Of a DNA stretch of 61,013 bases, positions 5,012 to 8,784 are shown one piece after another (position 1 is the stretch's first letter; the number at the start of each line of letters is the position of its first letter). This stretch comes from a virus. Under the pieces are notes generated by a model. It was given only the letters and a program-made list of their open reading frames with translations. It had not been told where the DNA came from and made no database searches. The position numbers and the translations under genes are program-made. The stretch spans positions 1-61,013 of the IMG/VR virus record IMGVR_UViG_3300027734_000072; one strand, given 5' to 3'.

Positions 5012-6295
5012 TTAAACTACTCTGGTACTTTCGTAAATCATTTTTGCGAATGTTTCTTCTTGATTTCTTACTGGCGGTAGTGGACCTTTGGTACTAGTAG
5101 ATGATAATGATTTACTAATTGCATTGTTATTAACTACCGATTCACCTTCAGATAATTTTTCTTGTACTTTTGCATTTAAATTCTCACCTTGTACCTGATT
5201 CAATTGTTGACCAGTATTTGGAGAAGAAGTGCCTTGTGCCATTGCAGTTGGCGCAGGTGAAGATTCAGATCCAGTAGGTGATGCAGTTGGTGCAGATGGT
5301 GTACTTGCTGGTGTGGATGATGTTCCAGATTCCGGTTTTGGTGCAGGAGTATTTGTTGTTCTATCTTGGATTGGTGTTGTTAAGTCCATAATTTGTTCAG
5401 GACTATAACCTTTAGATGCCAAAAACTCAGGTACTTTATTTCCAAAATATTTTGTTTTCCATGGTGCATCTTTTAATGCAGCATTTAAACTATCTCGTCT
5501 GGCTAATTCGGCTTTCTTTTCTTCTTCAGTTAAGTCCTCAAAAGCTTTGTTTGCATCCAATTGCTGAGTTGCACCACCGGAAGCATCCATTGCACCCGAA
5601 ACTTTACTTGCAGTTTCATGTGATTCATCGCTAGCTTGTGACATTGCATAAAATAATGCACCTAAACTGGCCGCAATCAAAATAGGTCCACCAACGGGAC
5701 CAACGAAGAATTTACCAATAGTACTGAGTAAGCTTATTGCTGATTTTGCGCCACCAAATGCATCTAAAATATCACCAAGAATACCTCCTGGATTGAATTC
5801 ATCTTCTTTCTTTTTGACTACTGATGCTTTACCTGCATATGGTTTACCGGTAATGGCTTCCATCAATTCTTTGTGCCTTCTCAGCCGTTCCATTTCTTTT
5901 TCTTCTTTGAATTTATCTTGATCATCACGCATCTTTGCATTATCTTCATTTGTCTTTTGCATCAATGAATAAATTTTCATTAACATATCAACCATTTCAT
6001 TACCAGCTTCCAGTTTACCTATTTTGGTAGAGGTCTTTTTACCGGTAAAATGTTCCATATCCTTTTGACTTCTACCAGACAATTTACCAACAACGGCTGC
6101 ACCTAGTTTACCACCAAAAAACTTACCAATGTTCATAGGATCAAATTTTTCTTTGATGCCAGTCATTCTTGCTTTAGAACCCTCACTTAATGTGGATTTA
6201 ATGGATGAACCAATGCCTTGACCTTCAGTCAATTTATCGGCCATTCTAGAACCGAATGATTGTCCTCTAATTTTTTTAGCGTCTTGGTAATCCAT
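5012..6295 (-). CDS. Tail/baseplate hub protein, paralogue of the next gene
   Basis: A 427-residue protein of unrecognised family. Residues 1-85 are clearly homologous to the start of the 6299-7867 protein: both begin MDYQ.AK, share KLT.G.GIGSS and share KARMTGIKE.FDPMNI. A charged coiled-coil-like segment follows (about 110-150), then a glycine-rich hydrophobic stretch with a membrane-helix look (about 188-220), and a Pro/Ser/Thr-rich tail (about 310-360). The two genes follow gp26 and its frameshift partner, where tape-measure or hub genes sit in many tailed phages. A tape-measure or hub role (gp29-like) is inferred from position and architecture only. Confidence 0.6.
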   Translation of the reverse strand: MDYQDAKKIRGQSFGSRMADKLTEGQGIGSSIKSTLSEGSKARMTGIKEKFDPMNIGKFFGGKLGAAVVGKLSGRSQKDMEHFTGKKTSTKIGKLEAGNEMVDMLMKIYSLMQKTNEDNAKMRDDQDKFKEEKEMERLRRHKELMEAITGKPYAGKASVVKKKEDEFNPGGILGDILDAFGGAKSAISLLSTIGKFFVGPVGGPILIAASLGALFYAMSQASDESHETASKVSGAMDASGGATQQLDANKAFEDLTEEEKKAELARRDSLNAALKDAPWKTKYFGNKVPEFLASKGYSPEQIMDLTTPIQDRTTNTPAPKPESGTSSTPASTPSAPTASPTGSESSPAPTAMAQGTSSPNTGQQLNQVQGENLNAKVQEKLSEGESVVNNNAISKSLSSTSTKGPLPPVRNQEETFAKMIYESTRVV

Positions 6296-6298
6296 CTA

Positions 6299-7867
6299 TT
6301 AACCTTTTTTCTTTAAATGTGCAGGTCTATCATCAACAGTTTCAGTTGATTGTTTGGTTTCTTTATTCTCGGCCGAAACGGTAGTATTGTTGGTAGTAGT
6401 TTGTTTTGGTTTATCTTTATTTAAGCTTTCTTTTAAATCTTTATTCTCTTTAGATGCTTGGTCTAGTTTGGAACCAGTTGAAACATTTCCATCAAGTGCA
6501 GCAGAATATTCATCCACTTTTGAAAGTATTTTTGCACCAACACCCACATCCAAATTTAATTTTGCTCCACCAATTGCTTGTGTAACTGCTCTATTGGCTG
6601 TCTGTTGGTCAGTAAAATCATTTATTTTATTACCAACACCTTTTTTAACAAATGCGGCCACAATTGTAGCATCAATATCTGGTTGATTAACCAAGTCCGG
6701 ATTACCAACCAAATCTTTTTTTACAACATCACTATAAGCTTTATAATTATTTTTACCTGTCAATTGTATGGAACCACGGCCACGATATTTAAAACCATCA
6801 CCTTCTTGTGTGTTACCCATACTTTGGCCAATTTTGGTATCTTTACCATAAACCATTTCACCAAATTTATACGGATCTTTTTTAATTTCATTTAATTCAG
6901 CATCAGAATATTTTTGTGTTCTGCTGGTAAAAACTTCTCGTATTCTTTCATTCGAAGTGTTTCCATATGCGGCAAGATTTTCATCACGGGGTTTAAAACC
7001 TGTTTCTTTACCCACATTAGCAATAACTGCTTTTTGAGCATATGCATTAGTAATTCCAGCTGCAACCAAACCAGTAGTAATGACTCCAATTACACCAGCA
7101 CCAGATGCAACCGTACCTGCAATACCTTTGCCAGCTGTAACAGGGGCTCTTGGTGCTGAAGGTGTTGGAGCTTTTTCTGCTGATGGTTTTGCTGTAGGAG
7201 GTTTAGGTGCTTCTTTAGGTGGAACCTTTTCAGGAGCTTTAGGTGCTTCTTTAGGAGTTGGTGCCTTTTCAACCTTTGGTTTTTTCTCAGTAGGCTTTGG
7301 TGCTTCTTCTTTTTTAGAAGGTTTCTTAGGTTCTGGCTTAGGTTCTTCTTTTGTAGGCTTTTCTTTTTTTGGTTTTTCTTTTTTTCTTCTAGCCGTAAGA
7401 GCTTTAACCAATTCTTGGTTTCTAAGTTCTTCTTCAGAATCTTTTTCTTCTATTGAACCCTTTTCTTCTTCTCTTCTAAGTTTTTCATCATCCAAATTTC
7501 TTAACATTAAACGATAAATCAAACCAAGAGCATCTACAGCCATACTATCTGCTTGAGAATCTAATTGACCTGGGGTTTTGTTTTTACCTGGACCTCTTGT
7601 TTTCTTGTCGGTAAAGAATTTCATGTCCTCTTTTGACCGACCCATCATTTTACCATATAAAGCAGGACCTAGTTTACTACCAAAGGTCATGGTTTTAACA
7701 ATGTTCATAGGATCAAAGGTTTCTTTGATACCAGTCATTCGTGCTTTGGTTTTTTCTGAGAGTGTTTCACGCAGGGAAGAACCGATCCCTTTGCCGCCAG
7801 TTAATTTGTCGGTCATAAGGTCGGAAAAGGATTTATTCCTTAAATCTTTGGCCTTTTGGTAGTCCAT
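6299..7867 (-). CDS. Tail-associated lysozyme with GH19 chitinase-like domain
   Basis: A 522-residue protein. Residues 1-90 match the N-terminal domain of the neighbouring 427-residue protein. Residues 110-158 are charged and helical. Residues 160-243 form a Lys/Pro/Glu-rich linker. About 265-455 is a GH19-type domain: ANVGKETGF with catalytic-type Glu288, and GDGFKYRGRGSIQLTG at 357-372, the signature of the family. The rest is Lys/Asn/Thr-rich. GH19 phage enzymes cut peptidoglycan. Fused to a virion-type N-terminus, this one probably opens the wall during DNA injection. The start is three bases after the stop of the gp26 frameshift extension. Confidence 0.75.
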   Translation of the reverse strand: MDYQKAKDLRNKSFSDLMTDKLTGGKGIGSSLRETLSEKTKARMTGIKETFDPMNIVKTMTFGSKLGPALYGKMMGRSKEDMKFFTDKKTRGPGKNKTPGQLDSQADSMAVDALGLIYRLMLRNLDDEKLRREEEKGSIEEKDSEEELRNQELVKALTARRKKEKPKKEKPTKEEPKPEPKKPSKKEEAPKPTEKKPKVEKAPTPKEAPKAPEKVPPKEAPKPPTAKPSAEKAPTPSAPRAPVTAGKGIAGTVASGAGVIGVITTGLVAAGITNAYAQKAVIANVGKETGFKPRDENLAAYGNTSNERIREVFTSRTQKYSDAELNEIKKDPYKFGEMVYGKDTKIGQSMGNTQEGDGFKYRGRGSIQLTGKNNYKAYSDVVKKDLVGNPDLVNQPDIDATIVAAFVKKGVGNKINDFTDQQTANRAVTQAIGGAKLNLDVGVGAKILSKVDEYSAALDGNVSTGSKLDQASKENKDLKESLNKDKPKQTTTNNTTVSAENKETKQSTETVDDRPAHLKKKG

Positions 7868-7870
7868 CTA

Positions 7871-8059
7871 CTATCTCTTCTGTCTTTCTCGTATCTTTTG
7901 GTTTTCTTCTTCAATATACTGAATCAACATAGCGATGTAAATATCTCTTTCCCAAGGTATCATGCTTTCAAGTTCGGTTAAACTGTACTTATGGTGTTGC
8001 ATTAACGAAAAATTCGTTTTATAATAATTACTCAGATTGTCATGACGAAATGTTAACCG
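7871..8059 (-). CDS. Frameshift extension of gp26 (small tail chaperone domain, gp51 position)
   Basis: A 62-codon open frame lies in the -1 frame relative to gp26, entered at the slippery site 8059-8065 and ending at TAG (7873-7871). The translation ends in a conserved-looking helical domain (MQHHKYSLTELESMIPWERD, followed by a Glu/Lys-rich helix). No ribosome site or convincing start precedes it; the only internal ATG, at 8002, lacks a Shine-Dalgarno sequence. Read through the shift, gp26 would grow from 243 to 304 residues. The layout matches the lambda G/GT and P2 E/E' tail assembly chaperones. In T4 the gene after 26 is 51. Identity with gp51 is not shown. Confidence 0.65.
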   Translation of the reverse strand, partial: RLTFRHDNLSNYYKTNFSLMQHHKYSLTELESMIPWERDIYIAMLIQYIEEENQKIRERQKR

Positions 8060-8784
8060 AAAAAACTTTCTAACCCTTCCACCTGTATCGTGTGGTCAAA
8101 ACCACACTTACTACATTTGATGTTAATGGTCTCTTGTAACTTTGGTAAGTTCTGTATAAACTTTTCTACTTTGGAGAATTGTTCTTGGTTCATGCCTTCA
8201 ACAAAGGTCATCATCTCACCAGGTTCTGCCTCATGGCCATAATAGAATTGTTCTTCATTGATATCATAGATGTACTCAATACATTCAGCAATCATATTAA
8301 AGGTAACATCGTTAATGCTTTCATACTTCAATGAATCTTTAACAATACCAAACTCCGGATATTTCATTTTGATGGTAAGATTGGGAGTCAATTGAATTTC
8401 TGGTTCTGATGGATCATCTTGAACGACTTTGATCTTTGTTAGGTCAATATCTTTTTCCATGATGTTACCACACTCTTTATCGTCAACCTCATTGTTACAA
8501 CGGTATCGACTTTCGACAATCTCACCAACAGACTTGGCTCTCAAATTAATAAAATAAAACTCAATATCAATAATAGGTAACTTATCAATATCAAGGTTTT
8601 CTGTCAAAGTACAGTTATTAAGAATATCTCTTACATTTTGTTGTATGGTCGTAGAATCTGTTGATTCCATGGCCATTAACAGATTCTTCTGCTCTTTAAC
8701 CAGAAAAGGTCTGTATTTAATTCTTTTCTTTGAAACCGGCAATTCAAGTTCATATGTCGGCACATCAATCTTTGGTAAAGCCAT
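8053..8784 (-). CDS. gp26: Baseplate hub assembly protein gp26
   Basis: A 243-residue protein resembling T4-like gp26. It has an N-terminal MALPKIDVPTYELELPVS, then the motif YRPFLVKEQKNLLMAME, the LRAKSVGE segment, and two cysteine pairs that could hold zinc (YRC...ECG near the middle, IKCSKCGFDH near the end). In T4, gp26 is needed to assemble the central hub of the baseplate. It is preceded on its strand by the tube-fold gene with a strong AGGAG ribosome site. Its last codons contain T TTT TTC two codons before the stop, so a fraction of ribosomes may continue into the downstream frame. Confidence 0.8.
   Translation of the reverse strand: MALPKIDVPTYELELPVSKKRIKYRPFLVKEQKNLLMAMESTDSTTIQQNVRDILNNCTLTENLDIDKLPIIDIEFYFINLRAKSVGEIVESRYRCNNEVDDKECGNIMEKDIDLTKIKVVQDDPSEPEIQLTPNLTIKMKYPEFGIVKDSLKYESINDVTFNMIAECIEYIYDINEEQFYYGHEAEPGEMMTFVEGMNQEQFSKVEKFIQNLPKLQETINIKCSKCGFDHTIQVEGLESFFG
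8059..8065 (-). other. Candidate -1 ribosomal frameshift site T TTT TTC
   Basis: On the minus strand the bases from 8065 down to 8059 read TTTTTTC. They are in phase with gp26 as T TTT TTC, an X XXY YYZ heptamer, two codons before the gp26 TAA. A -1 slip would join gp26 residue 242 to the 62-codon frame ending at 7871. Confidence 0.65.

Follow-up and report, generated by a model that had tools for sequence, protein, structure and literature searches.

Organization of the gp26 locus

The window, by which we mean the whole 61,013-nucleotide stretch analysed, contains on its minus strand an ATG-initiated open reading frame, gp26 (8053..8784), which encodes a 243-residue protein predicted to be a short tail-assembly (baseplate hub) chaperone. 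The gene ends with GAA AGT TTT TTC GGT TAA, in which the heptamer T_TTT_TTC (8065-8059, minus strand) lies in the X_XXY_YYZ phase that tandem -1 slippage needs and is followed by GGT TAA, placing it 3 nt 5' of the 0-frame stop codon (8053..8055, minus strand). An ideal, in-phase T TTT TTC near the gp26 end was thus found where it had originally been predicted. Slippage by -1 after TTC would join 242 residues to a further 62, yielding a 304-residue fusion that stops at 7873-7871, and both this predicted product and the open -1 frame down to 7871 agree with the first description. The -1 segment (7871..8061, minus strand) comprises a 62-residue gp51-type C-terminal domain and its stop; past the heptamer it reads RLTFRHDNLSNYYKTNFSLMQHHKYSLTELESMIPWERDIYIAMLIQYIEEENQKIRERQKR with no stop until 7871, and the remaining two frames are closed along its whole length.

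The first -1-frame ATG 3' of the heptamer is at 8002. No evident Shine-Dalgarno sequence was found for this ATG, in agreement with the earlier claim that the segment has no ribosome site of its own, and initiation there would give a product of 43 amino acids that has lost the conserved RLTFRHDNLSNYYKTNFSL. The following gene (6299..7867, minus strand) begins 4 nt past the fusion stop and encodes a tail-associated product of 522 amino acids with a GH19/endolysin-like domain. Next comes a 427-amino-acid open reading frame with a sub-threshold TMP_2 match, and in the relatives HTVC008M and Cr30 the annotated tape measure lies two genes downstream. The consecutive minus-strand genes 6299-7867 and 5012-6295 have near-identical N-termini (MDYQ.AK..R..SF...M.DKL..G.GIGSS..), after which one has the GH19/endolysin-like domain and the other a weak tape-measure match; the pair looks like a tandem duplication.

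Protein families and predicted fold of the two parts

Profile searches matched gp26 to PF12322 (T4_baseplate) with E=2.5e-58 and 197.8 bits, against a curated cut-off of 24.5, and to phrog_150 (baseplate hub) with E=1.6e-61. The -1 segment matched phrog_634 (baseplate hub assembly catalyst, i.e. gp51) with E=2.2e-28, and also the C-terminal end of phrog_150. The 61 kb fragment record contains a single PF12322 gene and a single gp51-type segment. These matches place gp26 in the T4-like gp26/gp51 (PF12322) chaperone family and indicate that the predicted long form would have a gp51-type C-terminal domain.

The AlphaFold model of gp26 was confident (pLDDT 87.6). Among solved structures, residues 1-96 were matched best by 3fgx, YqbN 3klu and the HK97 tail assembly chaperone 2ob9, at Z 7.1-7.6, modest values of a kind that can reflect a common arrangement; next were the Vibrio PICI protein 5ir0 at Z 5.0 and all others at <=2.3. 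Plain Foldseek E-values for the 3fgx, 3klu and 2ob9 chains were not significant, and a sequence search of solved structures with gp26 and T4 gp51 returned no relatives. The three structures superpose on gp26 residues 1-96, yet share 2-8% sequence identity with it, and gp26 has in addition a zinc-ribbon-like region and a C-terminal part. The model lends moderate support to a TAC fold for the N-terminal domain of gp26.

Conservation of the heptamer and the -1 phase

As the original prediction had proposed, related loci were compared; here they included those in IMG/VR. All 80 of the closest loci (gp26 identity 68-100%) contained T_TTT_TTC exactly 3 bases from the stop and a -1 frame coding for the same domain. 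The wider set combined these loci with further profile scans and named phages, and was represented by 202 sequences of <90% identity. The tail domain was in the -1 phase at 334 of 335 evaluable loci, and the T_TTT_TTN heptamer was kept at 333 of the 334 loci with the -1 phase, the exception being an Ackermannviridae phage; among the representatives it was present in 201/202. Heptamer and phase were thus conserved in hundreds of relatives, and the original prediction withstood the comparison that could have refuted it. The phages that keep both include Kyanoviridae, pelagiphages, Caulobacter Cr30, Vibrio D527, Sinorhizobium phiM12, Delftia W-14, Aeromonas Ah1 and Cronobacter LPCS28. The sole out-of-phase case, L140, looks like a broken open reading frame, and an apparent loss of the -1 frame in L019 and L043 was dismissed, both running into the contig end. 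No new loci came from profile scans that took gp26 of Delftia and Vibrio K474 as queries.

Codon choice at the site ran against background use. The first Phe codon of the heptamer was TTT in 201/201 representatives (background 77%), the second was TTC in 177/199 (background 23%), and the codon 5' of the two ended in T in 201/201; formal P values for this choice are inflated by relatedness, but the trend away from the background is clear. Within the close clade, the synonymous sites of the heptamer were invariant, and diversity per 0-frame codon position was 0.21/0.10/0.40 far upstream and 0.07/0.37/0.13 downstream. The variable position accordingly was the third of the 0-frame codons before the heptamer and the third of the -1-frame codons after it, the signature that a coding frame moved by -1 would leave. 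This pattern indicates that the -1 frame is not just open but under protein-coding selection.

Sequences that may stimulate frameshifting

The downstream stem or pseudoknot that had been predicted was not found: the RNA at 7990-8058 in the window folded with z=+1.19, and covariation analysis downstream of the site gave an alifold energy of -1.5 kcal/mol and no compensatory pairs. Across the family, the folding excess downstream was mild (mean z -0.7 to -1.2). A downstream stimulatory RNA structure is not needed in every known case of frameshifting, and it is no defining feature. Its absence in this phage suggests that the efficiency of frameshifting may be low.

Upstream of the site, a Shine-Dalgarno-like stretch, GGAAGGG (8074..8080, minus strand), lies 8 nt from the heptamer. 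Across the family the Shine-Dalgarno-like duplex was somewhat stronger than expected from synonymous choice, with a mean of -6.65 kcal/mol against an expectation of -5.04 kcal/mol (z about -1.1), and in the close clade the third base of the Gly codon within the stretch was free to vary. Since GGAAGGG is weak here and this base is free, an upstream stimulator is only suggested; GGAAGGG is a possible candidate for a stimulator of the dnaX kind.

Relation to T4 gp26 and gp51

In T4, the short and the long form are carried by two genes. T4 gp51 matched PF12322 over residues 1-201 (E=3.9e-52) and then phrog_634 over 147-246 (E=1.2e-23), whereas T4 gp26 matched PF12322 alone. A hidden Markov model built from the -1 domains detected the C-terminal end of T4 gp51 (E=3.3e-8) and those of gp51 from Ursula, Aes012 and phage 133, and the 304-residue fusion aligned with T4 gp51 end to end. 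By these comparisons the predicted fusion is the equivalent of T4 gp51, which, with the TAC-like N-terminal domain, supports the original proposal that gp26 and the fusion would be short and long tail-assembly chaperones. In an unrooted tree of the domain common to these proteins, the gp51s of the T4 type formed one cluster and the gp26s of that type another, and the frameshift forms fell outside both.

T4 gp26 and gp51 (TAC-N and TAC-NC) therefore belong to the same protein family as the products of the window and share their short/long domain design. The gene arrangement differs. The original prediction had gene 51 following gene 26 in T4; instead, gene 26 (minus strand) and gene 51 (plus strand) are divergent neighbours and do not form one operon, so that T4 obtains the pair from two divergent genes, whereas the window phage would obtain it from one gene by a -1 frameshift. 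Among the Straboviridae, Aeromonas Ah1 (L343) and Cronobacter LPCS28 (L342) have T_TTT_TTC GAY stop with a -1 C-terminal domain and no separate gp51 beside gp26, and this single-gene layout means that the two-gene arrangement of T4 is not universal in the family.

Discussion

The most probable explanation, in which we place high confidence, is that the gp26 gene makes both a short and a long chaperone through -1 ribosomal frameshifting at T_TTT_TTC. Most ribosomes would halt at TAA and release the 243-residue short form. A fraction would slip back one base on the heptamer and read on in the -1 frame, yielding the 304-residue long form with its gp51-type C-terminal domain. The slippery site, its phase, the coding -1 frame and the conservation of all three are features of the compared sequences, and ribosomal slippage is the route to the fusion that we infer from them.

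The -1 segment could instead be a separate small gene, gp51, with its own start, or be translated by reinitiation past the gp26 stop. Separate gp51 genes are annotated in P-SSM2, ACG-2014f, S-SRM01 and others, a -1-frame ATG lies 15-29 nt from the heptamer start in 43/201 representatives, and some cyanophages have an ATG just past the 0-frame stop, where independent initiation is possible. In the window phage, however, the first such ATG falls inside the conserved domain, a gap that is common to its close relatives; a separate gene would need neither a -1 phase at 334/335 loci nor a TTT TTC chosen against the background; and T4 gp51 carries both parts in one chain. We consider that a separate gene or reinitiation has only a slim chance of being correct. 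A change of frame by RNA polymerase, rather than by the ribosome, is slightly harder still to credit. Transcriptional slippage on homopolymers is known (see PMC5009743), and the site has six T in a row. Such slippage would favour longer runs, whereas the last codon in the family is usually TTC and not TTT (177 vs 22), which shortens the T run, and the X_XXY_YYZ phase is invariant. That the open frame and heptamer arose by chance, or through a sequencing error in gp26, has a negligible probability and is refuted by the comparison of related loci, since the site is kept in hundreds of independent contigs and finished phage genomes with a coding-type substitution pattern.

If ribosomal frameshifting produces the two forms, they would probably serve the tape measure and the hub as tail-assembly chaperones, by analogy with lambda gpG/gpGT. 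The lambda heptamer is G_GGA_AAG and differs from the one described here; the likeness to the lambda and P2 chaperones lies in the layout and the N-domain fold. In lambda (gpG/gpGT) and P2 (E/E'), too, a short chaperone and a long one made by -1 frameshifting are encoded a short distance ahead of the tape-measure region (PMC5009743), and a review (PMC3004832) counts T4 gp26 and gp51 among the hub assembly chaperones.

The suggestion that a frameshifted gp26/gp51 pair might be novel has been overtaken by published work. The finding that T4-like phages have short and long tail chaperones, some with poly-T frameshift signals, is credited to Vladimirov, Gautam and Davidson 2022 (Virology 566:9-15) where that study is cited in PMC10885494 and PMC12846349. 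Citing the same study, the PRFect paper (PMC10885494) notes that some T4-like phages do not frameshift but have one short gene and another for the long fusion. The window site is a further example of this published idea. Kyanoviridae cyanophages and pelagiphages (P-SSM2, ACG-2014f, HTVC008M, Mosig) share the heptamer, its phase, the fusion and the order of genes with the window, although their gp26 is only up to about 42% identical to that of the window and the locus is annotated there as two genes.

This layout bears on earlier annotations of gp51, which was found to be ~20% of its usual length in cyanophages and missing in Aeh1 (Sullivan 2010, PMC3037559). Cyanophage gp51 would be short because the rest of the chain lies in the gp26 frameshift fusion, and the missing gp51 of Aeh1 may have a similar explanation, to judge from the layout of Ah1 (Aeromonas, genus Cinqassovirus). 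The 'truncated' or 'missing' gp51 of hundreds of T4-like phages is thus most likely the -1-frame tail of gp26, which would correct a widespread annotation error and give gp51, the essential hub catalyst of T4, a full-length counterpart in T4-like phages with the frameshift layout. The frameshift site is easily tested, and the idea of short and long chaperones for T4-type baseplate hubs becomes testable in phages in which a single point mutation would abolish just the long form.

More tentatively, and with somewhat less than even confidence, we suggest that one protein family reaches the short/long pair by several routes: frameshifting at T_TTT_TTY, divergent genes in T4, possibly an in-frame gene in Campylobacter phage WX1, and a non-canonical -1 shift in Ackermannviridae. 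WX1 has one in-frame gene of 246 amino acids (L349:937-1677) with a PF12322-like part and a gp51-type C-terminal domain. In 19 Ackermannviridae loci from IMG/VR, and in two named phages, Sen_ST2 and Kevin, the heptamer is absent although the domain is retained in the -1 phase. At the site, the gp26 3' ends of this group (L099, L348, L352-L370) invariably read (A/G)TT_TTC_AT(T/C)_stop, and the -1 frame does not become open until 10-34 bases before the stop. Judged by its sequence, the site is not a canonical tandem slip site and is possibly a new kind of -1 slippery sequence. Vibrio phage K474 (L100) also keeps the -1 phase with no canonical heptamer (ACG CTT TTT GCG TAA TG); an ATG overlaps its stop codon, and termination-reinitiation may operate there.
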